DNA from: Candidatus Methylomirabilota bacterium
Lineage (GTDB): Bacteria > Methylomirabilota > Methylomirabilia > Methylomirabilales > Methylomirabilaceae
Direction: 5' to 3'
NCBI GenBank assembly: GCA_016207095.1
Contig: JACQQF010000045.1
Coordinates: 1-64,000 of the forward strand
DNA length: 64,000 bases
Shown here: piece after piece, positions 8,842 to 63,846 of the stretch
Layout: each line of letters opens with the position of its first letter
Numbering within the stretch: position 1 is the first letter of the stretch
Notes under the pieces: model-generated
The model's database searches: none
What the model was told of the DNA's origin: nothing
The model's input: the letters and a program-made list of their open reading frames with translations, nothing else
Made by a program: the position numbers and the translations under genes

Positions 8842-8966
8842 AGCACTGCCCCAAAGACGGGCGCGCCATCTGAGATCCCATCTCCATCCTCGCGTGGCCT
8901 GCTTTTCAGATTGCCACCGCTGGGCCGAATGTGTTATATTCTCGCGCTACAGTTGGCGGCTGTTGT

Positions 8967-9039: not shown

Positions 9040-9097
9040 CCCGCAAACATAGTTATCGCGCATAGTGCTTGACCGACCGTTAGCCTGTGGAGCGTGA

Positions 9098-10899: not shown

Positions 10900-10905
10900 T
10901 CGAAG

Positions 10906-13660: not shown

Positions 13661-13683
13661 GCGATGGACAGGTCCGGCCATGC

Positions 13684-13713
13684 TTGACGATTCGGCGACT
13701 TTTCCGGTATGAT
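13684..13713 (+). promoter_or_regulatory. Candidate sigma-70 promoter before the 13740 lipoprotein gene
   Basis: TTGACG (13684-13689) and TATGAT (13708-13713) with an 18-base spacer. It would start a transcript about 20 bases before the next gene, separating it from the hopanoid operon. Confidence 0.5.
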
Positions 13714-13739
13714 CGTACCAACCCACACCGCTATCCTCT

Positions 13740-14324: not shown

Positions 14325-14512
14325 TATAGAGTTCCGTGTTCTACGTTAAATACTGTTTCGGGTTCCACGTGCCGGGTTCCAAGTTCCAAGGTCCGGGTTG
14401 AAACCCGTGGGGCTTGACCTTTTGTTTAGAACTTAGAACCTGGCACTTGGCACCTGGAACAGTATTTAGCCTGGAACTCGGAACATAGAACCTGGAACTG
14501 CAGAGAGGACAG
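14289..14512. repeat. Large imperfect palindromic repeat (GTTCCACGTGCC... family)
   Basis: About 220 bases made of GTTCCA/GGAAC words. The left half contains TAAATACTGTTTCGGGTTCC (from about 14347) and the right half the complementary GGAACAGTATTTA (about 14456-14468), with GGGTTGAAACCC near the centre. The whole block can fold as one long hairpin. It supplies the end of the preceding gene and abuts the mlaE ribosome site. Confidence 0.7.
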
Positions 14513-14515
14513 CCA

Positions 14516-15301: not shown

Positions 15302-15302
15302 G

Positions 15303-45681: not shown

Positions 45682-47021
45682 TCAGCCAAGATATCGCCGA
45701 AGCGGTCTTGCGGGAGGCGAAGCGGAAGGGCAGTACAGAGGCCGACTTGGCCCTGGTGGAGAATGAGCTGGTCACAGTCCAGGTCAGGTTGGGCGAGGTG
45801 GAAACGATCCGTAGCGCGAGGGAAGTGGGACTTGGGCTGCGCCTCTTTTTCGGCAAACGGTCGGCCACCAGTTCCACCTCCGACCTCTCCAAGGAATCGC
45901 TCGCTCGCCTGGTAGAGGATACATCTGTCCTTGCGAAGGTGACCGCCCACGATGAGTTCTCGGGTCTTCCCTCTGTGGGAGAGTGTGCCAGGAGCTTCCC
46001 GGAGCTTCATCTCTACGACTCCGACGGTGAGGCGCTCCCGGTCAAGGAGCGGATCGCCCGCGCCAAGGAAGCCGAAGCTGCGGCCCTGGCCTACGACCCC
46101 AGGATCACCAACTCCGAGGGAGCGGATTTCGCCAGCAACCTCTATCGGATCATCTATGGGAGCAGTCACGGCTTTCTGGGGGAGTATCGCGGCTCCACCT
46201 TCAGCCTTGCGGTGACGCCGATCGCCCTGTTCAACGGAGCGATGCAGCGCGATTATTGGTATTCGTATGCCAGAAAGCTGAGCAAGCTGGAGTCGGCTGA
46301 AGCGATCGGGAGGAGGGCAGCGGAGCGGACCATCAGGCGACTCGGTGGAAGGAAGATCCACACCCAGGAGGTCCCGGTAGTGTTCGATCCCGAGACCGCC
46401 GCCAGCCTGATGCGGATCCTCTGCTCCGCGGTGTCCGGCCCCTCGCTCTATCGGGGAGCGTCATTCCTGATCGACCGGTTAGGCGATCGGATCGCGCCGG
46501 AGATCGTCTCCGTTTATGACGATGGGACAATCCCTGGCTACCTGGGTTCGAAGCCGTTTGATGGCGAAGGGTTGCCCACGCGACGGAACGCGGTCCTGGA
46601 AAACGGCGTCCTGCGCAGCTACCTCCTCGATACCTATTCCGCCCGCAAGCTGAAGCTCGCCCCGACCGGCAACGCAGCCCGTGGCGTCGGCGACGTGCCG
46701 ACCGTCGGGCCGACCAACTTCTTCCTTCAGGCCGGTCAGTACGATCCCGCGGAGATCATCCGGTCGGTGGACTCCGGTCTGTACGTCACCGAGCTGATCG
46801 GCCCCGGCGTGAACCTCGTCACCGGGGATTACTCGCGGGGGGCGGTGGGGTTCTGGATCGAAAAGGGAGAACTCGCCTATCCGGTGGAGGAGATCACCGT
46901 GGCCGGCAATCTCAAGGAGATGCTGCTCGGGATCGAGATGGTCGGCAACGATCTGACCTTCCGCAATAGCGTCGTGGCACCCACTCTCAAGATCCGCCGC
47001 ATGACCGTCGCCGGCCACTAA
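45678..47021 (+). CDS. tldE: TldE/PmbA-family subunit
   Basis: 447 aa. TldE/PmbA fold without the metal motif; conserved GEYRGSTFSLAVTPIALFNG and DTYSARKLKLAPTGNAARGV segments. It pairs with TldD to make the active heterodimer. Start overlaps tldD by four bases. Confidence 0.93.
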   Translation: MISQDIAEAVLREAKRKGSTEADLALVENELVTVQVRLGEVETIRSAREVGLGLRLFFGKRSATSSTSDLSKESLARLVEDTSVLAKVTAHDEFSGLPSVGECARSFPELHLYDSDGEALPVKERIARAKEAEAAALAYDPRITNSEGADFASNLYRIIYGSSHGFLGEYRGSTFSLAVTPIALFNGAMQRDYWYSYARKLSKLESAEAIGRRAAERTIRRLGGRKIHTQEVPVVFDPETAASLMRILCSAVSGPSLYRGASFLIDRLGDRIAPEIVSVYDDGTIPGYLGSKPFDGEGLPTRRNAVLENGVLRSYLLDTYSARKLKLAPTGNAARGVGDVPTVGPTNFFLQAGQYDPAEIIRSVDSGLYVTELIGPGVNLVTGDYSRGAVGFWIEKGELAYPVEEITVAGNLKEMLLGIEMVGNDLTFRNSVVAPTLKIRRMTVAGH

Positions 47022-47088: not shown

Positions 47089-47230
47089 TACTTACACCCC
47101 ACTGTATTGACAGAATCAGACCCCTCGATCGCCTGCCCGCCAAAGGTCTCCCCCGTCAGGGACGCATTCGTGATTCCTCTTGGTTTATCCTGAACTGTCA
47201 TGTATCCTCATAACAAGGAGGAAGAACGAC

Positions 47231-47515
47231 ATGGGAAGGAAACGAACCGTCATTGTAGTCTTAGATGCTGAGGTGGCAGAAGCCCTGAAAGCGGAAGCCG
47301 AGGGGCGGGACCGGAGCATGAGCTGGATTGTGAACCGCCTCCTGGCGGCTGCTCTCCAGCAGCCCCGCCGGATCGTCCTCGAGGAAGTGCTACCCGAAGA
47401 CCCCGACTGGGAGATCATCCGGGCGCGCCGCCACCAGCCTCTAGCCAACCTTGATACCTATCACCGGGAGCGGCTGAAAAAGAGCGGACTGCGAAAGAGA
47501 GCAGTCGGCGACTGA
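47231..47515 (+). CDS. Ribbon-helix-helix antitoxin
   Basis: 94 aa from the ATG at 47231 (AAGGAGG upstream); the earlier frame start lacks a ribosome site. N-terminal RHH fold: RTVIVVLDAEVAEALKAEAE, then SMSWIVNRLLAAAL. The C-terminal tail would wrap a RelE-type toxin, whose remnant follows directly at 47517. Confidence 0.75.
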   Translation: MGRKRTVIVVLDAEVAEALKAEAEGRDRSMSWIVNRLLAAALQQPRRIVLEEVLPEDPDWEIIRARRHQPLANLDTYHRERLKKSGLRKRAVGD

Positions 47516-47953: not shown

Positions 47954-48358
47954 CTATGGCTTCCAGACAGGAATCCCAACGTGGCGGGCCAGCAGGTCAA
48001 AGTGCTTGTCGCGGTGAAGAAGGCGGCACGGGTAGTTCACGGCAACCGCGGCGATGAGATGATCTGTCGCTGGGATGGACAAACCCTTGCGTCGCGCTGT
48101 GTGAGCCATCCAATACGCTGATCTCCAGACCGATGCCGTAATCAGGAACTGTTGGAGCGCTTCCAAGTCTTCGCAGAGCTCCTGATACTCTCCCTCCGTC
48201 CTTGTGCCGCCAGCAAGCTCCAAGATGATCATTTCACAAACCGCCGCGCGCCCCTCGGCCAGCAAATGACGGACTTGTTCCCTTACGAGGGCATCTCCAG
48301 TGGGCCGCAACGCATGGATCCAGACCGAAGTGTCGATCAGGACCCAGTCGTTAGCCAT
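47954..48358 (-). CDS. vapC: VapC-type PIN-domain toxin
   Basis: 134 aa. The PIN acidic residues are in place: D9 (LIDTSVW), E47 (LELAGG), D99 (ATDHLIAA) and D117 (HRDKHFD). VapC toxins are RNases that cut tRNA or rRNA. The ATG overlaps the last eight bases of vapB (ATGGCTAA). Confidence 0.92.
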   Translation of the reverse strand: MANDWVLIDTSVWIHALRPTGDALVREQVRHLLAEGRAAVCEMIILELAGGTRTEGEYQELCEDLEALQQFLITASVWRSAYWMAHTARRKGLSIPATDHLIAAVAVNYPCRLLHRDKHFDLLARHVGIPVWKP

Positions 48359-49969: not shown

Positions 49970-50899
49970 TCAGATCTTGAACCGGAGCGCAGCGGGAAGG
50001 ATCTCGATGGTCGCGGGCAGACGACCTACGCATTCACCGTCCAGATCAAGGAGCACATCCTCGTTGCTGGTCGCTACAACCTTCTTTGCCAGGAGAAGTC
50101 GCGTGCCGGGGTCATAGACGTGAGTCCCGTCGTAGAGGGAGCGCCACTTCAGGATGAAATCCTTCAGACTGAAGCCCGTCCAGATCGTGATATCAAAGCG
50201 CCCGTCATCGATGTCTGCGTAAGGGGCGACCCACATGCCGCCGCCAAAGTACTGCGAGTTACAGACCGCGCAATTGGTGATGTTCATAGATTCAGGAGCA
50301 CCGTTGCCCACAGTAAGAGTGACGGCCTGATCCCGGTACCGGAGAAGCGTCCTCGCAGTTGTCAACAGAAAGGCCAGCCTCCCTCCCATGCGCTTGCTGA
50401 CACTCGTGACTGCATGGGCCACAGCTCCCCCGCAACCGAACGACGCCACGTTGACGAAGACCCGCTCCCCGGACTGGCCCTCGTGGCCGGTGAAACGCAC
50501 GTGGCCTACATCGATCATCCGGGCATTGCACCCCGACAACCGGGCACAGGCTTCCTCAATCGTTCTGCCAATGCCGAATCCCCTGGGCAAATCAGACCCC
50601 GTCCCTTGCGGGATGACGCCCAGGACAGCGCTTGGCGCCACAGGACGGCGTTCATCGAAAAATCCACAGGCAACCTCGTTCAACGTCCCATCCCCTCCGA
50701 CGGCCACGACCATCTCGAAGCCGTTCGCAAGAGCCTTGCGGGTCAGAGCGGTGGCGTGCCTGGGGCCTTCCGTCATGGCGTGCTCGAACGGACCCACCGC
50801 CCGCTCCAACGCCCGGGCGATACGGTCCCAACGACGGCCCGTCGCCCCGGAAGCCGAGGCGGGGTTCACGACCACGAATGTCCGCAGGTTCTTATTCAT
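49970..50899 (-). CDS. Diacylglycerol-kinase-like lipid kinase
   Basis: 309 aa DAGK/YegS-BmrU type. Substrate/ATP loop VVNPASASGATGRRWD near residue 10, VAVGGDGTLNEVACG with the GGDGT motif at 68-72, and IPQGTGSDLPRGFG. It phosphorylates a lipid hydroxyl (diacylglycerol, ceramide or a related alcohol). It is the last gene of the minus-strand operon, five bases after the DUF2156 gene, so its lipid is probably the operon's product. Confidence 0.9.
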   Translation of the reverse strand: MNKNLRTFVVVNPASASGATGRRWDRIARALERAVGPFEHAMTEGPRHATALTRKALANGFEMVVAVGGDGTLNEVACGFFDERRPVAPSAVLGVIPQGTGSDLPRGFGIGRTIEEACARLSGCNARMIDVGHVRFTGHEGQSGERVFVNVASFGCGGAVAHAVTSVSKRMGGRLAFLLTTARTLLRYRDQAVTLTVGNGAPESMNITNCAVCNSQYFGGGMWVAPYADIDDGRFDITIWTGFSLKDFILKWRSLYDGTHVYDPGTRLLLAKKVVATSNEDVLLDLDGECVGRLPATIEILPAALRFKI

Positions 50900-50904
50900 C
50901 GCGT

Positions 50905-51906
50905 TCAGATGGATCGGGTGAGGAGAAGCAGGTCGATTATGCTGCGGATCGATAGCGGGCGAGTGGCGAGGTACTCACGTTCCAGGATGTCCGGTCCCCA
51001 CTTGAGCTTGTAATGGGCCTGGCTCTCCGCTGGATAGATCACCTTCCCGTATCTATGCAGCCTCCGCACCGCCCATGCAACCAGTCTGTTGGCCCCTGGG
51101 AGCTCCTCGCCCTCAACGATGAACGGGGTGAAGCCAAAGTGTAGGAACTCCACCCCGTCGGCGATCATTCGCTCTATGGCGCACGCGTTGCACAGCTCCA
51201 TTGCGCCGGGCGGTGCGGCTGGCAGACGCCGCGTGAGGTCGTGCAGGTAGCCTGGATTCTTCCCCCAGACCGGAACGTACGTGATGAAGCCGACCGCACG
51301 GTCGCACGCGTCCAGGACCATGAAGATTCGTCGCCAGCATTCTTGGTAAGCTCCGATCTCCCCGACCATGAAATCGAGTTCTTTCCGCCCCTTCCTCTCG
51401 AGCCACTTTGCGCTAATGGCGTGCAGGTGCGCGAAGGTGCGCTCCTCGCGGGGCACGTCCCGTCCGACCTCAACGACCCGGAGGCCGGCCTTCCGAGCTC
51501 GGTTGATCTTGTTGCGGAGCTGCATCTTTGAGGTACCGCGCAGGCTGTAGTGACGCAGCGTCAGAGTGAAATTCGTGCCGAGCTGATTCACGGCAAACCC
51601 GCGGTCGAGAAACATGTGAACTTGCGGCTCTCGCACCTGCACCACGATCACACTCCGGCCGCGTAACGCGGCCTGTGTCAGGAAGCGGTCGAGGAGCTCG
51701 CCTTGTGATGATGCTGGAGCGTGTACGCCTCCGAATGCAACCAAGTGCCGCCCCTGCTCTCGATAGGCGATGAAGCCCTCAATTCCGTCGAACGTGAAGC
51801 GCTGGTTGCGAGGAGACAGTGCCAAGTATCCTGATGGGTGGTCAATCAGCGCCGATACATCGAGAGGATAAAGCCATGGGTGCTCGATCTCGCGCGTGGA
51901 GGTCAT
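50905..51906 (-). CDS. DUF2156 (LPG-synthase C-terminal-like) protein
   Basis: 333 aa from the ATG at 51906 (AAGGAGG upstream). GNAT-like double fold of the phosphatidylglycerol lysyltransferase C-terminal domain: NQRFTFDGIEGFIAYR, MQLRNKINRARKAG and FLHFGFTPFIVEGEE near residue 260. Members without the membrane domain move aminoacyl or acyl groups to lipids or peptides. It comes just after the DAO-type oxidase and before the lipid kinase, fitting a headgroup-modifying role. Confidence 0.8.
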   Translation of the reverse strand: MTSTREIEHPWLYPLDVSALIDHPSGYLALSPRNQRFTFDGIEGFIAYREQGRHLVAFGGVHAPASSQGELLDRFLTQAALRGRSVIVVQVREPQVHMFLDRGFAVNQLGTNFTLTLRHYSLRGTSKMQLRNKINRARKAGLRVVEVGRDVPREERTFAHLHAISAKWLERKGRKELDFMVGEIGAYQECWRRIFMVLDACDRAVGFITYVPVWGKNPGYLHDLTRRLPAAPPGAMELCNACAIERMIADGVEFLHFGFTPFIVEGEELPGANRLVAWAVRRLHRYGKVIYPAESQAHYKLKWGPDILEREYLATRPLSIRSIIDLLLLTRSI

Positions 51907-51917
51907 GCCTGTCCTCC

Positions 51918-53246
51918 TTACGCTATCCTGTCCAGAAGTGACATCATCCGTACGGTGGATTGGACGGCGAGCCAGCGCACTGGCTCGAAGGGGATCAGTG
52001 GTGGATTGTTCCTGTACCATGGCAGATCCTCCATTGCCGCGCCGTCGCAGAGCAGGTGGGTGACCCAGGCCCCGGAGGCGACCGAGAGCGCGAGGCCATG
52101 TCCGCACCAGCCGAGAACGTGGAGAACCGAGGGCTTACGGTGCATCCGCTGAATGGCCGGTAAGGCATCGCGGACATACCCGATGACACCGGTCCAGCCT
52201 CCTGCTACCCGCACAAGAACCTCAGTCGGGAAGGTCCTGCCAAGCTCCTTGGCAAGCCGATCGAGGGCAGTCGCGCTGCTTCGATCCTCATCCGTGCAGC
52301 CGTCCCATCGGTAGCGCGGCGCGCCGCCGCCGAAGACGATCCGGTCATCACTAGTCAGGCGAAAGTAATTGAAGACTCGTTTTGCGTCGAGCACCCCCTC
52401 ACGCCCTTTCCACCCCAACGCCTCGCGCGCACGAGACTCGAGCGGCTGGGTGGCAATAACCTGAAGATGGACCGGCAGGATGCGCCCTCGGAGCATGCCA
52501 AGGGAAGGCGTGTATGCCCCGGTCGCCACCACGACCTCGTTCGCGATAATCTCACCGCCACCAGCGATCTCGAGGCGGACCGGGCGGTTGTCGTCGATGC
52601 CAGTCACCCGGGCATCCTCAAAGATCGCGCCGCCTCGAACGGTTACGCACTTAGCAAGACCGGCGAGAAGCCGTGTCGGATGAAGCGTTCCTGCGACCGG
52701 CAGCCTCACCGCCGCCGGGCCGCGGGCGCTTCGACGTGTGCATGGCGCCAGGCGGATCGTCCGATCGAGCGCTTCGTCGTCCAGCACCTCGGCGGGAAGG
52801 TCGAGCGCCCTTATCAGCGCGGCGAGCGCGGCAACGCGAGTTCGCCCAGCCGGCGAACGCGCCACCACAAGCTGTCCGGTCATCTCGAACTCGCAGTCAA
52901 TTCCCTCTCTGGCGACGAGCCTACAGACGTCTTCGACTGCGCGCAGTGTCGCAACATAGAGTGCTCTTGCCCTCGCCGGACCATGCCGCCGGACAAGAGC
53001 GGGAAGGCTCTGCCCGACGCCCGGGCCGAGAAGACCCGTCATGCGTCCCGATGCGCCAGCGCCGATCCGCAGGGCTTCCAGCACGACAACACGCGCGCCG
53101 GGCAGCCGTCCGAGCAGGTGGTATGCTGCCGAGAGGCCTGCCAGCCCTCCGCCAATCACTGCGACATCAGTCCGGAGGGTCCCGCCCGGCAGGCGCGGAT
53201 ACTCTGGGGTCTGAAATTCCGACCAGATGGGCGCGGCCGGGATCAC
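51918..53246 (-). CDS. DAO-type FAD-dependent oxidoreductase
   Basis: 442 aa. Dinucleotide-binding VAVIGGGLAGLSAAYHLL at about residue 29, then VVLEALRIGAGASGRMTG as in PuuB/glycine-oxidase-like amine oxidases, and GGWTGVIGYVRDALPAI near 375. It should oxidise a secondary or primary amine with release of hydrogen peroxide, or dehydrogenate it. The GTG start overlaps the stop of the upstream gene (GTGA). An amine substrate agrees with the transaminase at the head of the operon. Confidence 0.82.
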   Translation of the reverse strand: MIPAAPIWSEFQTPEYPRLPGGTLRTDVAVIGGGLAGLSAAYHLLGRLPGARVVVLEALRIGAGASGRMTGLLGPGVGQSLPALVRRHGPARARALYVATLRAVEDVCRLVAREGIDCEFEMTGQLVVARSPAGRTRVAALAALIRALDLPAEVLDDEALDRTIRLAPCTRRSARGPAAVRLPVAGTLHPTRLLAGLAKCVTVRGGAIFEDARVTGIDDNRPVRLEIAGGGEIIANEVVVATGAYTPSLGMLRGRILPVHLQVIATQPLESRAREALGWKGREGVLDAKRVFNYFRLTSDDRIVFGGGAPRYRWDGCTDEDRSSATALDRLAKELGRTFPTEVLVRVAGGWTGVIGYVRDALPAIQRMHRKPSVLHVLGWCGHGLALSVASGAWVTHLLCDGAAMEDLPWYRNNPPLIPFEPVRWLAVQSTVRMMSLLDRIA

Positions 53247-54331
53247 CGTTGCACCGCCCCCGCGTCAAGAGCGCGCGACACGACGCTCGACCGGCGCACG
53301 CGCCAGATCCGCCCGTCGACGAGGTAGTGGTGAAAAGCAACTCCCCAGCCCAGGCCGATGAGGACGTTTCGCGCCAGATCCGAGTGAACGGCCGCAACGC
53401 CAAGCACCCGCGGGCCGTACCAGGCAAGTCCAAGCGTCAGCCCAAAAGCGAGGTAGCGGAGCAGACTCCCCGATGGTGTGCGACCGAGGCCCCGCTCGTA
53501 CTGCCAGACGATGCGGTGGTATTGAAGATTGTGGAAGATCGTGAGCGTGGCCAAGATCGTCAGCAGATTTCCGAGGAGGCCGAAGACGGCCAGATGGAAC
53601 GAGATCACAATGGCCAGTAGGAGGTGCTTGGGGCCCAGCCGGAAAGGCTCTATACGTCCTGACAGCACCAGGCAGATAGTCGCAGTCAGCGCCAAGCCAA
53701 AGGCGACATCGAGCCCGAGACGGAGGGATGGAACCAGTGAGGCCGGCACCATGTGCGGCAACCCACTCCGCGCGTAGGACTCGCTGAGCGAAAAGCGAAG
53801 GTACGGATAGAGGCAACCCACCCAGAGGATAATGCTATCAAGGCGGGCACCCCGGCGCTCGTTCTCGCTGGCGCGCTTGCGGTAGAGCATCAGAAAGCCG
53901 TAGTGCTGTCGCACAAGATGCCAGTAGGCCCAGAGATACGCGGCGAAGAGGAACGCCTGGAAGAGCCAGCCAGCACCAGCCAGCTCCGAGCCGGTTCTCG
54001 CTCGTAACGCGCCGTCGAGTAGCGCGACAGCAGGACCGAGCGCGAGAAGCCCCCAGGACCAAGCCCCCGGAAGCCCGGCGCGCGACCCTTCGTCCGGAGC
54101 GAAATAGGTCCGGGCGTAAGTCCCCCAGACGTGCGTGCCGTCGAAGAGTACGCCCCACAGGAATACCGCCAGCACTGCCGGGTGGCCAGGCGCGCTTGCG
54201 TCGTCGAGGCGAGGCGCGGCCAGGAAGAAGGCCAACAGGCCCAGTCCCGCCACAACCGACCCCTGAAACCAAAGAAGGTCATCTCGCCGGGAGAGGATCC
54301 AGGACTGAGGTGAGACCACGAGGCTAGACAT
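53243..54331 (-). CDS. Histidine-rich polytopic membrane protein
   Basis: 362 aa from the ATG at 54331, which overlaps the preceding stop by eight bases. About eight to ten membrane helices. Conserved-looking His clusters lie at helix ends: FDGTHVWGTYART, AYWHLVRQHYGF, IFHNLQYHRIVWQYE and FHHYLVDGRIWR. Such spacing recalls membrane di-iron desaturases and hydroxylases, but the order does not match a family I can name. It is placed between two flavoenzymes in the operon, so an oxidative role on a membrane lipid is a fair guess. Confidence 0.65.
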   Translation of the reverse strand: MSSLVVSPQSWILSRRDDLLWFQGSVVAGLGLLAFFLAAPRLDDASAPGHPAVLAVFLWGVLFDGTHVWGTYARTYFAPDEGSRAGLPGAWSWGLLALGPAVALLDGALRARTGSELAGAGWLFQAFLFAAYLWAYWHLVRQHYGFLMLYRKRASENERRGARLDSIILWVGCLYPYLRFSLSESYARSGLPHMVPASLVPSLRLGLDVAFGLALTATICLVLSGRIEPFRLGPKHLLLAIVISFHLAVFGLLGNLLTILATLTIFHNLQYHRIVWQYERGLGRTPSGSLLRYLAFGLTLGLAWYGPRVLGVAAVHSDLARNVLIGLGWGVAFHHYLVDGRIWRVRRSSVVSRALDAGAVQR

Positions 54332-55556
54332 ATTGCGGGACCGGGCTGGTCGCGAAGCGCGACCAGATGCGCTGCTGAATGTTGCGGCCGAACCACGAAT
54401 TGGCGAGCTCGAAGGCCCGCCGCTGGAACATATCGCCGAGGGGGCCACCCAGGGCGAATAGGCAGCTCATCCAGTGGGACGAGCGAATCATGGCGGTATT
54501 GACCGGCCGTCGCTCGCGCTCGTACGCTTCGAGCGCCCGATCGAGCGGGGTGGCGCGCGCGCCGGCTGCAAGCGCCGGTCCGACGTGGCGCGCGAGCACG
54601 GCGGCATCCTCGATGGCCATCGTCATCCCTTGCGCCATGACTGGGTTGATGACGTGGATCGCGTCGCCGATCAGCGCCGCGCCTCGACCCGAGTAGAGCG
54701 GAGCATGGCCGCGCCAGAGCTTGTAGAGGTGAACCCCGACGGGCGAGGCACGACGGCCGACCAGCAGGGGCGAGCGATGCACGATCCTGGCCAGCTTGTC
54801 GTGCACCGAACCCGACTGGAAGAGGTGCTCATCTTCCTGGCGGACGAGCGCGGCAAGCCCGAGACGGTTTACGCCCGGTACGACCAGGATCCCCCCGTCC
54901 GGATGCAGCTCGGTTCGCAACACGTCCGGATGGCCCGCCGGCCGGTCGATGTCGAGAATGAAGAGCGAGTGGTCATATTGTTTACGAGGCAGCTCGATCC
55001 CGAGCGCCCCGCGAACAAACGAGTAGGCGCCATCAGCCCCGACGACGAGCCGGGCGCGGATCTGCTGCTCCCCCCCGCCGTCACGGGCCAGCGCAACGCC
55101 ACGCACGCGTCCCTCTTCCTCTAGGAGGCGAACAACGCGGCTGTGGTACCGCATCTCGACGCGCGAGGTGGCCTGGGCCGACTCGACAAACACACGCTCG
55201 ATCTCGGGATGTGGAAGGACGAGGTACGGGTCATGCACCCCCGGGAGCACAAGTGGGACGTCGAGGAGGACGCCGGCCTTGTAGTGAAAGAACTGCATCC
55301 GCGAAACCTCGCGGGCGCCGGCGGCGCGACACCGATCGAGCGCGCCCCACTCCCTGAGTAATTTTGTCACGGGGGGAAGCAGGCTCTCGCCCCGGTTAAT
55401 GTTGCCAGGACCGGAGTGGCGATCGACGACGAGAACGCGCAAGTCGTAGGCGTGAGAGAGCGCCAGGGCGAGCGCGGCACCCCCCACGCCAGCCCCGACG
55501 ACGATCACGTCGAATTTGTGGGAATCAGAATCAGGGGTCAGGCGCGTAGTGTTCAT
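54324..55556 (-). CDS. UbiH/PHBH-type FAD monooxygenase
   Basis: 410 aa from the ATG at 55556 (AAAGGAG upstream). FAD-binding VIVVGAGVGGAALALALSHA at about residue 16, VVGADGAYSFVR (DG motif) and GAALIGDAIHVINPVMAQGM (GD motif). It overlaps the upstream small membrane protein by 26 bases. Members hydroxylate or epoxidise aromatic rings and isoprenoids, or reduce geranylgeranyl groups; here the substrate is unknown. It would need NAD(P)H and oxygen. Confidence 0.85.
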   Translation of the reverse strand: MNTTRLTPDSDSHKFDVIVVGAGVGGAALALALSHAYDLRVLVVDRHSGPGNINRGESLLPPVTKLLREWGALDRCRAAGAREVSRMQFFHYKAGVLLDVPLVLPGVHDPYLVLPHPEIERVFVESAQATSRVEMRYHSRVVRLLEEEGRVRGVALARDGGGEQQIRARLVVGADGAYSFVRGALGIELPRKQYDHSLFILDIDRPAGHPDVLRTELHPDGGILVVPGVNRLGLAALVRQEDEHLFQSGSVHDKLARIVHRSPLLVGRRASPVGVHLYKLWRGHAPLYSGRGAALIGDAIHVINPVMAQGMTMAIEDAAVLARHVGPALAAGARATPLDRALEAYERERRPVNTAMIRSSHWMSCLFALGGPLGDMFQRRAFELANSWFGRNIQQRIWSRFATSPVPQYV

Positions 55557-56007
55557 CTGGACTCCTTTCCTGTGTGATCGCCGGCGCTGACTGCCGCCCC
55601 CACCGGCGGTTCGACTGGAACGGCAACGACACCGGCTTGTAGACGTTCCCGAAGATCCCACGATCGCCGGACAAGTGGATCGGGACGGCGAGCATCGCCC
55701 ACTCGGCGCCTCCGCTCGCCAGCCCCCAGAATCCCACGCCGACGCCCGCGACCAGGTAGCTGTGTGTCACGTTGTAAAGGTGATGGTAAATCGGCGCGAT
55801 CTTGCCTCCGCCCGCCCGCCGAACGGCGATCGCCCCCGGTAGATAGCCCACAAGGTCGATGATGACGAACGCGGCCGCAAAGCGGTCCCAAGCCACGTCG
55901 TTCGCATGCAGCGCCACGAGTGCGCAGAGCGCGAGCACAAGGGTCGTATGCTCGGCCCGCACCCAGAGCCAGGTCTGTGTGGTGTGGAAACGGTGAGTAT
56001 TGTTCAT
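55531..56007 (-). CDS. Small polytopic membrane protein, possibly DUF4260-like
   Basis: 158 aa, four predicted helices. APIYHHLYNVTHSYLVAGVG and HLSGDRGIFGNVYKP are the recognisable parts and resemble the YNxxHSY and HxxxDR segments of DUF4260. The C-terminal tail is polar and overlaps the next gene. The ATG at 56007 comes one base after the upstream stop. The His/Asp-containing helices hint at metal or proton binding; no function is known. Confidence 0.6.
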   Translation of the reverse strand: MNNTHRFHTTQTWLWVRAEHTTLVLALCALVALHANDVAWDRFAAAFVIIDLVGYLPGAIAVRRAGGGKIAPIYHHLYNVTHSYLVAGVGVGFWGLASGGAEWAMLAVPIHLSGDRGIFGNVYKPVSLPFQSNRRWGRQSAPAITQERSPDEHYAPDP

Positions 56008-56008
56008 C

Positions 56009-56866
56009 TTAGTCGAGCCCAGCCCGCGCGATCAGTCGCGCGTGCTCCTTGTCGATGCTGGCGTGAATCATCGCCACCTGCTCCTCGTAGGGTGTCGCCG
56101 TGATAAGGCGTCCGGGCGCCATCTCGGCGTCCGCGAACACCTCCGGATGAAGCCGAGCCACTGAGTCGAACAGGCCCACAAACTCCCGCACGTAGAAGCT
56201 GAACACCTCGCGCATGGCGAGGCGCGCTTCGGCGCACAGGGCGGCGGCCTTCGCCCGGCGGGCGGGATCATCCAGAAGAAGCGTCCGCACCACGTCGGCG
56301 CCAAATGCGACGTGGCGGGTCTCGTCGATGAATGCCCCGCGCACCAGGCGGGCGAGGTATGGATCGACAGGCTTCCAATAGCGCTCCTCGTACGAGTAGA
56401 GCGGATGAGCCATTCCCTCGAGCACCAAGTTGGTCAGGACCATCCCATCGATGAACGAACCTCCGTCGGCGACCTCGTAGCAACGCTGGATGAAGCTGCG
56501 CAGTGGGGGAATGAGAATCGCCTCGGTGGAGGCCGCGAGGCCCTGACCGCAGGCCGCGCTCGCCAGGTCGAGGCGACGCCGGAACACTTCGTGATGACGC
56601 GCCTCGTCCAGCGTCTGCTGGGCGGAGAAGTTGAGCGCGTCCACGCTAGGCGCCAGCCTGGTGAGGGCTCCCGAGACGCGCAGCGACGCTTCCTCGAAAA
56701 CCACGAAGAGGGCGAGGTCGAGGCGGTGCACCTCGGCCAGCGGAGCTGAGCTCAGAATCAGCTCCGGCAGATCCTCCCCGAGTGCGTCGAGTGCGCGACC
56801 CTCGCGGGCCCATTGGTCAGAGACTACCGAGTCAAGCCAGCGTGAGATCGAAAAGTTAATCGCCAT
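56009..56866 (-). CDS. Ferritin-like di-iron oxygenase (AurF/RNR-like)
   Basis: 285 aa all-helical protein. Ligand pairs: FEEASLRV and DEARHHEVF (E-x-x-H) in the first half, LEGMAHPLY and DETRHVAFGAD (E-x-x-H) in the second, the spacing of AurF, ribonucleotide reductase R2 and aldehyde-deformylating oxygenase. AurF-type enzymes oxidise amines to nitro compounds; ADO converts fatty aldehydes to alkanes. With an acyl reductase/transaminase as the upstream partner, either an aldehyde or an amine is a reasonable substrate. Confidence 0.78.
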   Translation of the reverse strand: MAINFSISRWLDSVVSDQWAREGRALDALGEDLPELILSSAPLAEVHRLDLALFVVFEEASLRVSGALTRLAPSVDALNFSAQQTLDEARHHEVFRRRLDLASAACGQGLAASTEAILIPPLRSFIQRCYEVADGGSFIDGMVLTNLVLEGMAHPLYSYEERYWKPVDPYLARLVRGAFIDETRHVAFGADVVRTLLLDDPARRAKAAALCAEARLAMREVFSFYVREFVGLFDSVARLHPEVFADAEMAPGRLITATPYEEQVAMIHASIDKEHARLIARAGLD

Positions 56867-56923
56867 CTGTCCCTCCTTGATTCGGAAGATATGAAAGGTG
56901 CATCACGTCAAGCTCGCGGGGCG

Positions 56924-59368
56924 TCAGCCACGCGCCGCCGCCTCGAGGAGGACACCGTTGCCATCGAGCAACGGCGCGGCAAGCCGGAAGCCGTGCCGTT
57001 CAGCGATCGCAAGCATGCGATCGACCTCGGCCAACGGGACGTCGTTGCCGATCCCGCAGTCGCGCGTCTCACCTTCAAGCGCCAACAGGATCGTCTCGGC
57101 CACGCAGGCGAGCTGTACTCCGTCGGGCAGACCCTGTAGATTTCCCATCCCAAAGCGCGTTGTTGGATCGGGGAGGGCGACGAGGCCGCCGTCGATCACG
57201 GTGAGATCAGCGCGTGCCCTGATTCGCCGAGAGGTGTCTGGCGGCCGGGCGACGTCGCAGATGATTGTTCCGGGCGCGAGCGGAGCGGCGTCGAGAACGG
57301 GACGACCGGCCGCGGTCGCCGTGATGACGATATCGCAATCGCCGAGCCTTCTCAGGTCCAGGCTGATGTCCACGGCGCCAGGACGCCACGAGATTTCCCG
57401 GCGCAGCCGGAGAAGGTGCTCGACCCCTGTGGTCGGGTTGCCGATCAGAATCATGCGCCGAGGTCGCTCGCGGGCCAGCAATCGCGCGCAAAGGGCGCCC
57501 ACGGACCCGCGCGCGCCGACGACCGCAACGCGCGCGTCGGCGATGGCGAGCTGACGCTCTTCGGCCAGACGGCGCGTCGCCGCAAACGCCATCCCGGCGG
57601 TGAGGGCGTTTCCGGTCGTAATGGCCGGTCCCCGGCCTATGACCGCGAGGCCACGCTGGCTATAGGGCACCGTGTATCCACCGAGGCCGACGATGCGGAC
57701 GCCGAGCGAGGCGGCCAGATCGACCGCGCGCCGGATCTCGCGACCGACCCACCGAAGTCCGCGACGGGCCATCTCCTCGGGTAGGAGAAACAGGCCCAGG
57801 ATGAGGCCATCAGCCACCGCCCCCGTCGCCGAGCGGATCGTCGGCGCGCGCATGAGCACCCCGGGAGGAAGCTGCGCCGTGAACCCACAGAAGCGACGAA
57901 GCTCCTCCGGCGCCAGGCCGCTCAGTGATGGATCGGCCGCCGCGACGTCCTCGAGGCGCGTGTAGTGGCCGAGAAATGCGTAACTCGGGGCCGGCGCGTA
58001 CGTGCCAATCGATGGCGGCAGGATGGCGGGAGGCTCCTGGTCGCTTATTGCGACCGAAATGGTGGCTCGAGGATGGTCGAGCGCGCCAATCGCGTGGACG
58101 ATGGTCTCGGTCGTACCGCGATCGAGCGAGTCACAGACTGACTCGATCCCGTCGAGGGCTAAATCAAGCTCCTGGTCTGAGATGACGAGAGGCGGCGCCA
58201 CCCGGAGCACAGGTGAGGTCCCGAGTGTTGGCAGAATGAGCACCGAGGCGTTCTCGGCCACCGTCGCAGCGACGGCGTAGGCATACAGGCTCTGATATTT
58301 GAGGAAGGAGAGGAACGCGCCCTCATCATCGCCAGGCGGTCGGAGCTCGATTGCGGTCATGAGGCCTCGACCGCGGACCGCAGCGATGATCTTGGGATAG
58401 CGCTCGGCAAGCTGGGCGAGGCGCGCCAGGAGACGCTCGCCTTTGCGGGCCGCATCGCCGCAGAGCCCGCCACGCGTGAGCGCGTCGAGGACGGCAAGCC
58501 CGACCCGGCAGGCGACGTTGTTGTTGGCGAAGGTGGACGAGTGCCGGAGGGCGAACCGTTCGTCCCAGAAGGCAGCCGACGCGAAACACCCGCCGAGGGG
58601 GAAGAGGCCGCCGCCGAGCGCTTTTCCAACGAGCAGAACATCGGGCGCGATGCCCTCGTGCTCGCACGCAAAGAGGCGCCCCGTCCGTCCAAGGCCCGTC
58701 TGCACCTCATCAAAGACGAGCGCAATTCCATACTGCGTGCAGAGATCTCTGACACGCCGCAGATAGCCCGGCGGCGGCAGATGAACACCGCGCTCGCCCT
58801 GGATCGGCTCCAGGAAGAATGCCGCGATCCGGTCGCCGTCCCTGGCGACGCGGGCGGCAAGCGCCTCGGCGTCGCCGAATTCAACCCGCTCGAAGCCCGG
58901 CGGAAGCGGGCCGAAGCCCTCGGCATATTGCGTCTGGCCCGTGACCGCGAGGGCACCCAGCGTCTTTCCGTGGAACGAGCCGTTCGCGGAGAGAATGATC
59001 GGGCGGCGGGTTCGAGATCGCACCAGTTTGATTGCGGCCTCCACCGCTTCAGCTCCCGACGTCGTGAAGATCCCACGCGACAGATTGCCGGGAGCGAGGC
59101 GCGTGAGGCATGACGCGAGCTCCTCGGCGTAGGGGGCGCGGTAGGGTTGCACCATCGCCGGCTCGGCGCCGTCGAGGGCGGCGCGGACAGCGTCGATCAC
59201 ACAGGGCGCATTATGCCCTAGCGCCACGGCGCCGTATTGCGCATAGCAATCCAGGAACCGGCGGCCGTGCGAATCGAACAACCACACCCCCTCGCCTCGC
59301 ACCCACGCACGGTCCATGCGGAAGAGCGCGAGCAATCGGTGCAGCGTCGGATTGAGAGTGTGGCTCAT
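56924..59368 (-). CDS. Fused class III aminotransferase and acyl-ACP reductase
   Basis: 814 aa from the ATG at 59368 (ATGA overlap with the small ORF upstream). Residues 1-430: class III PLP aminotransferase, with TTSGAEAVEAAIKLVRSRT, FDEVQTGLGRTG near 221 and the PLP Lys in LLVGKALGGGLFPLGG near 247. Residues 455-814: homologous in order to cyanobacterial acyl-ACP reductase (AAR): FLGHYTRLEDV, GLGGYT, ITTGNALTAGMAF, the Rossmann loop VAVVGARGSVGALCARLL near 614, and LACVAETILLALEGE near 755 matching the AAR segment that carries the acyl-accepting Cys. Predicted: acyl thioester to fatty aldehyde (AAR) to fatty amine (transaminase) with the aldehyde passed within one protein. Confidence 0.82.
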   Translation of the reverse strand: MSHTLNPTLHRLLALFRMDRAWVRGEGVWLFDSHGRRFLDCYAQYGAVALGHNAPCVIDAVRAALDGAEPAMVQPYRAPYAEELASCLTRLAPGNLSRGIFTTSGAEAVEAAIKLVRSRTRRPIILSANGSFHGKTLGALAVTGQTQYAEGFGPLPPGFERVEFGDAEALAARVARDGDRIAAFFLEPIQGERGVHLPPPGYLRRVRDLCTQYGIALVFDEVQTGLGRTGRLFACEHEGIAPDVLLVGKALGGGLFPLGGCFASAAFWDERFALRHSSTFANNNVACRVGLAVLDALTRGGLCGDAARKGERLLARLAQLAERYPKIIAAVRGRGLMTAIELRPPGDDEGAFLSFLKYQSLYAYAVAATVAENASVLILPTLGTSPVLRVAPPLVISDQELDLALDGIESVCDSLDRGTTETIVHAIGALDHPRATISVAISDQEPPAILPPSIGTYAPAPSYAFLGHYTRLEDVAAADPSLSGLAPEELRRFCGFTAQLPPGVLMRAPTIRSATGAVADGLILGLFLLPEEMARRGLRWVGREIRRAVDLAASLGVRIVGLGGYTVPYSQRGLAVIGRGPAITTGNALTAGMAFAATRRLAEERQLAIADARVAVVGARGSVGALCARLLARERPRRMILIGNPTTGVEHLLRLRREISWRPGAVDISLDLRRLGDCDIVITATAAGRPVLDAAPLAPGTIICDVARPPDTSRRIRARADLTVIDGGLVALPDPTTRFGMGNLQGLPDGVQLACVAETILLALEGETRDCGIGNDVPLAEVDRMLAIAERHGFRLAAPLLDGNGVLLEAAARG

Positions 59369-59514
59369 CTGGACACCGGCGCAAAGATCCCGGCATTCAG
59401 GCCATGACGAGAGCGCCGCCTCCTTGCACACACACCATGAGAGGCGTATCCTGGATAGAGCCCCGCCGAACCAACCGCACCACATTTGCCACTGAGATAT
59501 CGGAACTCGGTCAT
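59365..59514 (-). CDS. 49-residue leader ORF coupled to the fusion enzyme
   Basis: AAAGGAGGG sits eight bases before the ATG at 59514, and the TGA overlaps the next start (ATGA). The product begins MTEFRYLSGKCGAVGSAG and has two Cys and a RRRRSR basic cluster; no signal peptide. It could be a coupling leader, a small accessory protein or, less likely, a precursor peptide. I do not recognise it. Confidence 0.5.
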   Translation of the reverse strand: MTEFRYLSGKCGAVGSAGLYPGYASHGVCARRRRSRHGLNAGIFAPVSR

Positions 59515-59685: not shown

Positions 59686-62600
59686 ATGTCTGCCCAAGAG
59701 AGCACCCGAGAGAGTAATCCATTAGCCGAGTTGATCGGCGACAGCCCGGGGATCGAGGCCGTCCGGGAGCAGACCGGGCGGCTGCTTCACCGTCAGGGTG
59801 ACTCCCACCGGCTCCCTCCTCTCCTGATCCATGGCGAGACCGGGACCGGCAAAGGGCTCCTCGCTCGGGCGGTGCACCGTGGTGGCCCTCGCGCCAGCGG
59901 CCCCTTCGTTGACATCAATTGCGCAGCCATCCCTGAGACCTTGCTCGAGGCGGAGCTGTTCGGCTACGAGCGCGGAGCATTCACCGATGCCAAGCAGGCG
60001 AAGGTCGGACTCTTCCAGGTCGCCCACCGCGGGACGATCTTTCTCGACGAGGTGGGGCTCCTGCCCGATGGACTTCAAGCCAAGCTCCTGAAGGTGATCG
60101 AGGAGCGGTCGGTCCGCCGGATCGGCGGCACGCGAAATGAGTCGGTGGATGTTTGGATCCTTGCAGCCACGAATGAGGATCTCACCACGGCCATACGCGA
60201 GCGTCGTTTCCGCGAAGACCTCTACCATCGCCTGGCGGTCCTGACTCTCTGGATGCCGCCGCTGCGGGAGCGAGGCCGGGACATCCTGCTGCTTGCCGAA
60301 CACTTCCTCAAGAGGGCCTGCGCCGAATATCACCTGCCGCAGAGAACCTTGGCCCCCGACGGTCGCGCGGCCCTCCAAGCCTACCGATGGCCGGGTAACA
60401 TTCGAGAGCTGAGCAACGTCATCGAACGGGTGGCGCTGCTCTCAGAGGCGCCGCTGGTGACCGCGAAGATGCTCGGGCTGCCGGACGTGCCTCTGTCGAA
60501 ATCGCGAGAGGCGGCCCGACCTGATGAGGCGATCTCCCTCGCGACCGCAGTCGGTACCGTCGAGCGGGACCATCTCCTCGAGGCGCTTACCCAGACCAAC
60601 TGGAACATTACGCGGGCTGCGGCAGGCCTGGGGATTTCTCGCGACACACTCCGCTACCGCATCCAGAAGCACAGCTTGCAGCCTCCGGGGGCACTGCAGC
60701 GTCGCCGACGAGGCGCCTCGGGACCCACGACACTGGCGCCCTCGGTAGGGGCGCCAGAGCCTCCGGCCCTCGCGGTTGCTTCAGGTGCCCCGGGGACGGT
60801 TCCCGTGCCCGCGGGCGTTCGGTGGGAGCGGCGGCGGCTCACGCTGCTGCGCGCCGCCCTGGCTGCGCCGCCGGGATCGGACTCCCCCCTGTACGCCAGC
60901 CGGGCGCTTGAGGTTCTAGTGGACAAGGTAAGGAACTTCGGCGGGCGCGTCGAGGAACTGAGCCCGACGGGGATTGTCGCAGTGTTTGGCCTCGAGCCGG
61001 TCGAGGATGCGCCGAGGCGTGCCGCCCATGCGGCGATGGCCATCCAGAAGGCTGCGGAGCGCGCCCGGCGTGGGGGTACCGAGCCGCTGGCGGTCAAGAT
61101 GGGAATCCATGTTGACCAATTTCTGGTGGTGCAGGCCAGCGGTACCGTCGAGATCGACCTGGAGGCCAAGCGCCAGGCATGGACGGTGCTGGAGGCGCTG
61201 GTGACGAGCGCCGAACAGGACACCACTGTGGTCAGCGAGGCTGCCGCACCATTCCTGGAACGCCGCTTCGACCTGGTGCCGCTGGGTGGCCTGGAGCAGG
61301 CGCAGGGGCAAGCCTTCTGCCTGGTTGGGCATGAACGAACAGGACTCCGGTTCGGAAGGCGCATGGCCAGGTTCGTGGGGCGGCGCCACGAGCTGGAGCT
61401 GCTGCACAGCCGACTGACCTCCGCAATGGCGGGGCACGGGCAGGTGGTCGGGATCGGAGGCGAGGCTGGGATCGGCAAATCGCGGCTCCTGTTCGAGTTC
61501 CGACAGAGCCTCGCGGGTGAGCGGGTCACGTTTCTCAGGGGCCGCTGTCTCTCTTACGGGAGCGCCATTCCCTATTTTCCGATCCTCGACATGTTCCGCC
61601 GCAACTACAGGATCACCGAGTCCGATCGCCCAGAGATGATCACCGAAAAAGTCCGGTTCCTGCTGCAGCAGGTGGGGATGGATCCGGAGGAGTGGGCGCC
61701 ATACCTGCTCCAGATTTTGGGGGTGAAGGAGGGGACAGAAAGACTGGCCCCGCTTCCCCCGGAGGCGATCAAGTCCCGGACTCTCGAGGCTCTTCGACAG
61801 ATGAGCCTCATAGGCAGCCGGGGGAGACCGACTGTCTTCGCGGTAGAGGATTTCCACTGGGTGGATAAGGCCTCGGAGGAGTGTTTTAATTCACTGGTCG
61901 AGGGTCTGGGCGGCGCCCGCATCCTGTTCATCTGGACGTACCGTCCCGGATATCAGCCGCCCTGGATGGACAAATCCTATGCGACCCAGATGGCCCTCCA
62001 ACCTCTCTCCCCTCAGGACAGCCTCAGCGTGGTGCACTCAGTCCTCCAGACCCAGCAGGTCCCCGAACCTCTCGCGCAACTGATCCTGGGCAAGGCTGAG
62101 GGGAATCCATTCTTCTTGGAGGAACTGTCCCGGGCAGTCGGAGAGCAGGCAGATCACCGCCTGACCGTGGCGGTGCCTGACACGATCCAGGAGGTCCTCC
62201 TGGCGCGAATTAATCGCCTTTCCGACGAACCAAAGCGGCTCCTTCAGGCAGCCGCCATTCTGGGGCGGGAGGTTTCATTGCGCCTGCTGGGGGCGATCTG
62301 GGAGGGCCCAGGCGTCCTGGACCCGCATGTGAGGGAGCTCACCAGGCTGGAGTTTCTCTATGAGCAAACCTGGGCCGCCGAGCCGGTGTATGTTTTCACC
62401 CATGCCCTGACCCAGGAGGTCGCCTACGAAAGCTTGCTCATCCCTCGCCGCCAGGCCCTTCATGAGGCTACAGGCAGGGCTCTGGAGGCCCTGTACGCGG
62501 ATCGCCTTGATGAGGCGATCGACCGGCTCGCGTATCACTACTCCAGGACCGAGAGGGCCGACAAGGCCGTGGAGTATCTGAGGCGCTTTGCCAAGAAGGC

Positions 62601-63846
62601 GGCCCAAGGGCATGCCCATGCCGAAGCCATCAGAGCATTGCAAGAGGCCCTCGCGCACGTCGAGCGGCTGCCGCCACAGGAGCGCGACCGCCAGCTCCTC
62701 GATCTCACCCTTCGTCAGGCCTACTCCCTCACTCTCCTGGGCCGATTCCAGGCGGTCCAGGAACTCCTCCTGCGCCAGCAGGAGCGCCTGGAGCAGCTCC
62801 AAGATCCAGCCGTGGCCGGACACTATTATTTCCTGCTCGGTCGTGTTTCTTTATTCCTAGGAAATGTCGAGCAGGCGGTCCAGAGTGCGGCGCGATCCAT
62901 TACAGAAGCGAAGCGTTGTGGCGACAAGGCGACCATGGGGAAGGCCTACTATCTGCTGGCACAGGAGGCCCCCCTGTCCGGCCGAGGGCGTCAGGGAATC
63001 GAGCACGGCCAGCAAGCGGTGGCTCTCCTGGAGCCGACCGGGCAGCAGTGGTGGATCGGCCAGGCGCACTGGGTCGTGGGGCTTAATCACGCCCAAATGG
63101 GCGAATTCGAAGAAGCCCTGCAGGCTGAGGCGCGGGCCTACGCCATAGGAGAAGCCGCTGGAGACCGCCAGCTACAGGCTTCTGCCGCCTGGGCCTCCGG
63201 GCTCATCCGCGCGCTGATGGGAGATTGGGAAGCGGGGATCGAAGCGTGTCAGAGAGGTTTGCAACACTCTCCGGATCCACTCAGTATAGCGGTCGCTTTG
63301 GGGTGGCTGGGCCACGCGTACCTGGAGAAGGGAGATTTCGCTAACGCGATTCCCTTGCTCCAGCAGTCAGTCCAGAAGCTCGGCCAGTTTCCCTTCGCCC
63401 AATTTCAGGGATGGTTCATGATATGCCTGGCCGAGGGTCATCGTCTAAACGGTCAGATCGAGAAGGCGCTGGACCTTGCCAACCAGGGACTCGCAATCAC
63501 CAAAGGCGCGAAGTCTTCATACGGGGTCGGGTGGTCCCAGCGGGCCTTGGGTCGAATCGCCCTGGCCAGAGGCTCGCTTTCTGAGGCGGAGACCCATCTT
63601 AATGAAGCCCGGCAAATCTTTCACTCGCTTCAGGCGCGATACGACCTGGGACGCACCCACCTGGACCTCGCTGCCCTCGCCCACGCCCAAGGGAAGAAGG
63701 CGGAGGCCGCGACAGATCTTGGACATGCCCATCGCTTGTTTACGGCCTCGCGGGTCCCCAAGTATTTGGAGCGAACCGAGCAGCTCGCCAAGACCTTCGG
63801 GGTGGCGGTCTCGCGGGAGCCCTCAGACGATCTGTCCGCTGCTTGA
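59686..63846 (+). CDS. Chimeric sigma-54 activator/cyclase-like/STAND-TPR regulator
   Basis: 1386 aa. Residues 17-245: NtrC-type AAA+ with Walker A GETGTGK (50-56), the sigma-54-contact loop as GAFTDA (97-102; usually GAFTGA), Walker B IFLDEVG (118-124) and RFREDLYHRL. Residues 290-330: Fis-type HTH (ITRAAAGLGISRDTLRYRIQ). About 375-555: a nucleotide-cyclase-like domain lacking the metal aspartates (SPTGIVAVFG where GDG...A.FG is usual). From 563: FVGRRHELELL and a second Walker A GEAGIGKS (near 591), a STAND/AAA_16 module. From about 945: around ten TPRs. No receiver domain. It likely senses a ligand or partner through the C-terminal half and activates the divergent sigma-54 operon. Confidence 0.85.
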   Translation: MSAQESTRESNPLAELIGDSPGIEAVREQTGRLLHRQGDSHRLPPLLIHGETGTGKGLLARAVHRGGPRASGPFVDINCAAIPETLLEAELFGYERGAFTDAKQAKVGLFQVAHRGTIFLDEVGLLPDGLQAKLLKVIEERSVRRIGGTRNESVDVWILAATNEDLTTAIRERRFREDLYHRLAVLTLWMPPLRERGRDILLLAEHFLKRACAEYHLPQRTLAPDGRAALQAYRWPGNIRELSNVIERVALLSEAPLVTAKMLGLPDVPLSKSREAARPDEAISLATAVGTVERDHLLEALTQTNWNITRAAAGLGISRDTLRYRIQKHSLQPPGALQRRRRGASGPTTLAPSVGAPEPPALAVASGAPGTVPVPAGVRWERRRLTLLRAALAAPPGSDSPLYASRALEVLVDKVRNFGGRVEELSPTGIVAVFGLEPVEDAPRRAAHAAMAIQKAAERARRGGTEPLAVKMGIHVDQFLVVQASGTVEIDLEAKRQAWTVLEALVTSAEQDTTVVSEAAAPFLERRFDLVPLGGLEQAQGQAFCLVGHERTGLRFGRRMARFVGRRHELELLHSRLTSAMAGHGQVVGIGGEAGIGKSRLLFEFRQSLAGERVTFLRGRCLSYGSAIPYFPILDMFRRNYRITESDRPEMITEKVRFLLQQVGMDPEEWAPYLLQILGVKEGTERLAPLPPEAIKSRTLEALRQMSLIGSRGRPTVFAVEDFHWVDKASEECFNSLVEGLGGARILFIWTYRPGYQPPWMDKSYATQMALQPLSPQDSLSVVHSVLQTQQVPEPLAQLILGKAEGNPFFLEELSRAVGEQADHRLTVAVPDTIQEVLLARINRLSDEPKRLLQAAAILGREVSLRLLGAIWEGPGVLDPHVRELTRLEFLYEQTWAAEPVYVFTHALTQEVAYESLLIPRRQALHEATGRALEALYADRLDEAIDRLAYHYSRTERADKAVEYLRRFAKKAAQGHAHAEAIRALQEALAHVERLPPQERDRQLLDLTLRQAYSLTLLGRFQAVQELLLRQQERLEQLQDPAVAGHYYFLLGRVSLFLGNVEQAVQSAARSITEAKRCGDKATMGKAYYLLAQEAPLSGRGRQGIEHGQQAVALLEPTGQQWWIGQAHWVVGLNHAQMGEFEEALQAEARAYAIGEAAGDRQLQASAAWASGLIRALMGDWEAGIEACQRGLQHSPDPLSIAVALGWLGHAYLEKGDFANAIPLLQQSVQKLGQFPFAQFQGWFMICLAEGHRLNGQIEKALDLANQGLAITKGAKSSYGVGWSQRALGRIALARGSLSEAETHLNEARQIFHSLQARYDLGRTHLDLAALAHAQGKKAEAATDLGHAHRLFTASRVPKYLERTEQLAKTFGVAVSREPSDDLSAA

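Follow-up and report, generated by a model that had tools for sequence, protein, structure and literature searches.

Which product is made by a run of eight minus-strand genes (g1 to g8, Table 1) in Candidatus Methylomirabilota bacterium is the question raised by the stretch of DNA studied here, 64,000 nucleotides of contig JACQQF010000045.1, which is referred to below as the window. The first-pass annotation had assigned these genes to a phosphorylated lipid derived from a fatty amine. All eight open reading frames (ORFs) are present and open from start to stop, and the families that it had named hold, namely a class III aminotransferase joined to an AAR-like reductase, an LPG_synthase_C (DUF2156) protein, DAO and FAD_binding_3 flavoproteins, a DAGK_cat/YegS kinase and a diiron-type protein, as do the two membrane proteins (g4 and g6), neither of which has a Pfam match. 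We consider that the eight genes probably form an aliphatic azoxy pathway of the valanimycin and azodyrecin kind with a fatty-chain amine (probability about 0.78), a reading supported by sequence homology, conserved motifs, the gene neighbourhood and the placement in a tree.

Homologues of the enzymes of N-N bond formation

The one strong relative of g7 in the Protein Data Bank (PDB) is the 'Putative VlmB homolog' 6d9f/8wvr (E=2.6e-26, residues 8-283 of 285). Six residues of g7 (E58, E88, H91, E150, E182 and H185), presumed from their conservation to be metal ligands, are kept in all 74 aligned VlmB-like rows; the rows used here and for g6 were pre-selected at E<=1e-12 and >70% cover. By homology, g7 is a VlmB homologue with the features of a VlmB-type diiron protein. 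No VlmB was found in viral contigs. In its aligned part, g6 is 39-47% identical to proteins encoded on 11 Streptomyces plasmids, each of which has a VlmB-like gene as well; four of these regions were inspected. According to a review (PMC11705231), VlmO forms the N-N bond, with D51, H82, H110 and D114 as essential residues, and VlmB then leads to the azoxy group. These residues correspond to D51, H82, H111 and D115 of g6, which are kept in 86 of 86 aligned rows, and g6 is, as judged from the alignment, a VlmO homologue with all four essential residues present.

The g2 product matches LPG_synthase_C (Pfam, E=9.6e-51), a family that serves as the VlmA model in the azoxy-cluster survey, as described in part of PMC9379638. 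It shows 38-41% identity to its DUF2156 counterparts in four azoxy-type loci of Streptomyces that have VlmB and VlmO, its PDB matches include Ala- and Lys-tRNA-dependent phosphatidylglycerol synthases, and it is predicted to be a VlmA-type aminoacyl-tRNA:hydroxylamine transferase. The g1 product matches YegS_C and DAGK_cat in Pfam, as well as TIGR00147 (136.5 bits for a cut-off of 118.65); VlmJ is likewise a kinase of the DAGK family. As VlmJ phosphorylates the serine moiety in the valanimycin pathway (section of PMC9379638), a VlmJ-like role, the phosphorylation of a hydroxyl, is proposed for g1 by analogy.

Thus, g7, g6, g2 and perhaps g1 look like the counterparts of VlmB, VlmO, VlmA and VlmJ of azoxy biosynthesis, and an N-N product is therefore expected rather than simply a phospholipid. 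Alternatively, the DUF2156 protein might aminoacylate a lipid and the kinase might make a phospholipid, so that a phosphorylated lipid would be derived from the fatty amine without any N-N bond. Both the LPG_synthase_C and the YegS families include lipid-acting members, and a different fusion in a genome of the same genus (G002) lies near CarS-like and PPDK-type genes, but a plain phospholipid pathway has no use for homologues of VlmB and VlmO in which every key residue compared is present. This very unlikely alternative was rejected, as it leaves g7 and g6 without a role. The earlier claim therefore stands in part: the reduction and amination of a fatty acyl thioester by the fusion, followed by oxidation of the amine, is probably right, whereas a product that is simply a phosphorylated lipid does not agree with the VlmB, VlmO and VlmA matches, which point to an N-N compound.

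Amine supply and candidate oxidising enzymes

The N-terminal half of g8 is an aminotransferase (Aminotran_3, E=5.5e-95). Its reductase half scores 149.7 bits with the PigE model and 72.2 bits with the AAR model TIGR04058, both below their own cut-offs, and among PDB structures (4ppm, 6jzq) it matches the N-terminal half of PigE (E=6.8e-29) better than a cyanobacterial AAR (4.7e-17). A position outside the AAR family had been named beforehand as a ground for refuting the first-pass annotation; on these values the C-terminal half is AAR-related. The accompanying statement that TamH and PigE use a different, SDR-type reductase was mistaken, since the g8 half matches PigE better than AAR and the PtTamH reductase is itself homologous to AAR. 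A Cys of g8 that aligns with C294 of SeAAR is kept in 10 of the 10 fusions compared; a simple GxxGxxG pattern and a simple pyridoxal phosphate (PLP)-Lys pattern are each found in six of the ten, g8 having both. By these features g8 is a TamH-type fusion, in which the transaminase, the AAR-type reductase, the catalytic Cys, the GxxGxxG motif and the PLP Lys are all present, and it is predicted to convert an acyl thioester to a fatty aldehyde and then to a fatty amine.

This architecture is already characterised. In PMC9594044, PtTamH is a fusion with the same transaminase-reductase order and an AAR-homologous reductase, which, when coupled with PtTamA, converts a C12 acid to the amine. PtTamH and PigE resemble g8 in combining a transaminase and an AAR-type thioester reductase in a single polypeptide, and the domain order of TamH is that of g8, but they serve tambjamine and prodigiosin, whereas the fusion of the window adjoins N-N genes. 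A tambjamine- or prodigiosin-like pyrrole pathway fed by the TamH-like enzyme would agree with the best matches of g8, which are of the PigE/TamH type; however, no pyrrole-pathway family is among the Pfam and NCBIfam matches listed for the other seven genes (for g5 in NCBIfam, the best 25 of 94), and this extremely improbable reading was rejected on that ground. In a tree of transaminases with 41 rows (the window plus 40 chosen loci), the ten fusions form one group (91/75, on a branch that is not starred) and the 17 transaminases of actinobacterial azoxy clusters form a separate group (100/100); because of this separation, the amine-supply modules look different in descent from those of the actinobacterial clusters.

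The VlmH profile, which represents the two-component VlmH/VlmR hydroxylase, was matched in 79 of 85 VlmO loci. At E<=1e-10 no VlmH match was found in the genome of the window, nor in that of L056, one of three related loci (L055 to L057, Table 1); the L055 genome has one of 27%. The best PDB matches of g5 are 2x3n/6fho, 6sw2 and 6sw1 (E about 4e-24 to 6e-24), which we take to be PqsL of the Pseudomonas aeruginosa alkylquinolone N-oxide pathway. PqsL would thus provide the nearest solved structures to g5; it catalyses the hydroxylation of an aromatic amine and requires reduced flavin, 2X3N having been used as search model (part of PMC7248105). Homologues of g5 are found in the L057 contig (52%) and in the L056 genome (37%), the latter on a separate contig, where it overlaps a kinase gene. 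In this L056 genome, two TldD/PmbA-like genes, recognised by eye, lie beside the kinase-g5 pair (L145, 9229-12763), possibly by chance. A search of 96 genomes for this g5 homologue (E<=1e-50) and for VlmO (E<=1e-5) gave a single genome for each, the same in both cases. We predict g5 to be the N-hydroxylase of the fatty amine, replacing VlmH/VlmR. The cluster is called a variant because no VlmH match was found and g5 is proposed in its place; the N-N core looks to have been kept while the amine supply and the N-hydroxylase were replaced.

The g3 product is a member of the DAO family (Pfam, E=3.7e-61), and its two PDB matches are annotated as glycine oxidase and sarcosine oxidase. It might perhaps further oxidise the hydrazino acid, and our guess from the DAO relatives is an oxidation at the nitrogen next to the carboxylate. 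For g4, there is no Pfam family, no PDB fold match at E<=0.001 (model with a mean pLDDT of 75) and no plasmid relative. Its homologues in L056 and L057 are 57-63% identical, and D64, H67, H138, H143 and H267 are invariant in five sequences, one of them partial; at a guess, these His and Asp residues form a metal site, possibly that of a metal oxidoreductase.

Gene order, related loci and distribution

The most likely start of g8 is 59368, because its N-terminus then resembles those of the L055 and L056 fusions; the boundary at 59514 first given for the fusion is out of frame with this start. When the likeliest starts are used, the junctions from g8 to g1 measure 57, 1, -26, -8, -4, 11 and 5 bp, and one transcription unit is therefore plausible. 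Overlaps, first described for most junctions, are found at four of the seven with the longest ORFs but at only three with the likeliest starts. The divergent regulator-like protein is possibly the regulator of the cluster, and a neighbouring sigma-54 activator argues against an actinobacterial source of the DNA. Near the cluster lie a TldD/PmbA-like gene (by eye, 45678-47021), perhaps by chance, and, on the minus strand, an ORF recognised by eye as a VapC-like PIN-domain protein (47954-48358), close to a small possible RHH ORF (47180-47515).

Table 1. Genes of the window and composition of related loci (coordinates refer to the window or to the locus named)
Feature	Coordinates	Strand	Description
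g8	56924..59368	-	814 aa; TamH-like fusion: N-terminal class III PLP transaminase and C-terminal AAR/PigE-type thioester reductase
g7	56009..56866	-	285 aa; VlmB homologue, predicted diiron enzyme
g6	55531..56007	-	VlmO homologue, DUF4260-like membrane protein
g5	54324..55556	-	group A FAD monooxygenase (FAD_binding_3)
g4	53243..54331	-	polytopic membrane protein with invariant His/Asp; His-rich
g3	51918..53246	-	DAO-family flavoenzyme, glycine/sarcosine oxidase-like
g2	50905..51906	-	VlmA-like LPG_synthase_C (DUF2156) protein
g1	49970..50899	-	YegS/DAGK-family lipid kinase
Divergent regulator-like protein	59686..63846	+	Pfam: sigma-54 activator, HTH_8, AAA_16, TPR
L055			fusion, SCP2-like (below Pfam cut-off), permease-like ORF (by eye), g7, g6, g2, kinase at contig end
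L056			g4, g3, fusion, SCP2-like, amino-acid permease, g7, g6, g2
L057			fusion, g6, g2, kinase, g5, g4; without g7
L049, Paraburkholderia phymatum STM815 pBPHY01	4430-15965		ACP stretch (by eye), fusion, AMP ligase, P450, VlmO, VlmA, DAO, VlmH-like protein

The locus is regarded as more than chance because the same gene subsets recur together in three other genomes (L055 to L057), in which most genes are 48-74% identical and the kinase counterparts, present in L055 and L057, only 26-27%; g7, g6 and g2 are found together in L055 and L056. All three are metagenome-assembled genomes (MAGs) without an actinobacterial label, L056 being labelled Gammaproteobacteria and L057 'uncultured bacterium'. 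The L055 cluster is the nearest to that of the window (61% on VlmO and VlmA), and its label, Klebsiella pneumoniae MAG, looks wrong. In an unrooted VlmO and VlmA tree of 59 rows, from which 27 of 85 loci were omitted for want of a VlmA row, the window and these three loci share one side of a branch (100/100).

A scan of genome contigs with the VlmO alignment gave 157 relatives, and the 80 best were retained. The partners counted in 85 VlmO loci other than that of the window, some of them cut by contig ends, were VlmB in 75, VlmA in 60, DAO in seven, g4 in two and g5 in one, besides the VlmH matches given above. An AAR-type reductase was found in four of the 85, namely L055 to L057 and L049. 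The VlmH-like protein of L049 scores 423 bits with the VlmH profile, and no VlmB match was found in that locus; as this N-N type cluster sits in a named strain, it offers a practical place for chemistry. In a plasmid of Pseudoalteromonas rhizosphaerae (L053, 9001-9438), a VlmO-like protein of 30% identity with the four key residues present is encoded next to an MMPL transporter and an outer-membrane lipoprotein-sorting protein, perhaps another use of the fold; no g2 or g7 match was found at E<=1e-3 in that stretch.

These counts bear on an unlikely reading that partly overlaps the azoxy one, in which the N-N route to the hydrazino acid is shared but leads on to a hydrazone, an azo or another N-N compound instead of a plain azoxy, with g3 carrying out one oxidation. 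It draws on the glycine and sarcosine oxidase annotations of the g3 matches and on the finding of a DAO homologue in six of 10 VlmO loci without VlmB versus one of 75 with it (Fisher p=3e-6). However, the window and L056 carry DAO and VlmB together, and after tree correction the inverse pattern is unsupported (starred branches leave 3 independent pairs, with a median p of 1). A replacement of VlmB by DAO was accordingly dropped as a rule, the raw counts being striking but the independent changes on the tree too few. The VlmO loci in which a DAO-family flavoenzyme is present and VlmB is unmatched (L059, L073, L074, L120, L121 and L049) may point to an alternative fate of the hydrazine.

That the cluster is common in the class of the window was rejected: a strong VlmB match was found in one of 95 genomes, that of the window itself, and in 13 others the matches were only partial, at about 26-32 bits. 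PF02461 (methane monooxygenase) gave no match in the genome of the window, nor did the control give one anywhere, so that this negative carries no weight. A fusion with both halves occurs in at least five other genomes, among the matches listed from 98 others searched, and no g1 to g7 match was found within the stretches examined around the five other fusion loci of the class (L027-L031). Conserved co-occurrence of the genes, as opposed to scattering, thus holds for much of the set in the three relatives but not around these five fusions. One of them, L031 (G002:C344, 290-7410), belongs to the same genus and has the same divergent regulator, with three stretches of 83-94% identity in several frames and a fourth (50 aa) of 55%. 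The transaminase-reductase fusion next to it there is unlike g8 (37%/29%), and PPDK-type and CarS-like genes come after it; the locus may be a cluster for a fatty-amine lipid.

Several observations weigh against the azoxy pathway, or against its extension to the related loci. The identity of the g7 product to four VlmB-like proteins of Streptomyces is only ~28-32%, and no VlmK-like or SerRS match was found among the eight genes in Pfam and NCBIfam, the search for these having covered the eight genes and not the rest of the genome. The PqsL substrate is an aromatic amine, unlike the alkyl substrate proposed for g5, and PqsL is not known to act on alkyl amines; moreover, another contig of the L057 genome encodes a VlmH homologue (44%), so that g5 is not the sole N-hydroxylase candidate there. 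As L057 has VlmO and VlmA without VlmB, which was found neither in the contig nor in the genome at E<=1e-10, azoxy formation is not assured for every related cluster. The L055 genome has no g4 match (E<=1e-10) and no g5 match (E<=1e-20), its contig ending in the kinase. The amino-acid permease of L056, with a counterpart in L055, is missing from the g8-g7 interval of the window. In the window, g5, g4 and g3 lie between g6 and g2, unlike in L055 and L056. Finally, the tree program gave a long-branch warning for L049, L057 and L121.

Proposed pathway and its meaning

All reactions proposed here, their order, the chain, the amino acid and the product are what we infer by analogy with the valanimycin and azodyrecin scheme, on which the steps are modelled. 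The reductase half of g8 would reduce a fatty acyl thioester to the aldehyde, which the transaminase half would convert to the fatty amine, and g5 would N-hydroxylate this amine. The hydroxylamine would then be joined by g2 to an amino acid from an aminoacyl-tRNA, serine being a guess from the presence of the kinase. Rearrangement of the O-aminoacyl hydroxylamine by g6 would give an N-N bonded hydrazino acid, of which g7 would oxidise the hydrazine to azoxy; g1 would phosphorylate the side-chain hydroxyl, and g3 and g4 would tailor the product.

For azodyrecin (ady) of Streptomyces, a fatty aldehyde, a transaminase, an N-hydroxylase and VlmA-, VlmO- and VlmB-type proteins have been proposed to act on a long alkyl chain (part of PMC9379638). 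The window shares with ady the predicted amine route via an aldehyde and the three Vlm-type proteins. However, ady has a separate dehydrogenase and transaminase, a two-component VlmH/VlmR-type hydroxylase and a methyl ester made by Ady1, whereas the window has the TamH-like fusion, the PqsL-like protein, the kinase, DAO and g4. With valanimycin (vlm) it shares the VlmA, VlmB and VlmO homologues, and g1 is a kinase of perhaps VlmJ-like role, but vlm uses isobutylhydroxylamine and has VlmH/VlmR, the SerRS VlmL and VlmK, which are unmatched among the eight genes.

The azoxy survey covered 3,146 actinobacterial genomes and required VlmA/VlmH pairs (section of PMC9379638), and since VlmH was required, a set without it would escape. 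No description of a VlmO/VlmB cluster outside the actinobacteria was found among the titles and passages listed in the literature searches, although Zheng 2024, Shi 2023 and Maleckis 2024 may hold some. A passage of PMC4219678 reports that Pseudomonas putida has a cluster encoding a VlmH-like protein together with an aminotransferase and a desaturase; the passage does not mention VlmO or VlmB.

Azoxy compounds are a rare N-N type, described so far mainly from Streptomyces and kin. Tentatively, and with far less confidence than the pathway itself, we suggest that the product may be an amphiphile of bacteria outside the usual Streptomyces group, long-chain and phosphorylated, with an azoxy or a further oxidised N-N group, made by an actinobacterial N-N core combined with a TamH-like fusion and a PqsL-like N-hydroxylase, with the DAO flavoenzyme g3 and the undescribed His-rich membrane enzyme g4 doing N-N chemistry not yet known. 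If the azoxy reading is right, the VlmO/VlmB machinery would extend outside the actinobacteria, TamH-type amine supply would be tied to N-N bond formation, and the candidate N-hydroxylase g5, together with the unassigned g3 and g4, would be enzymes to try on simple substrates.

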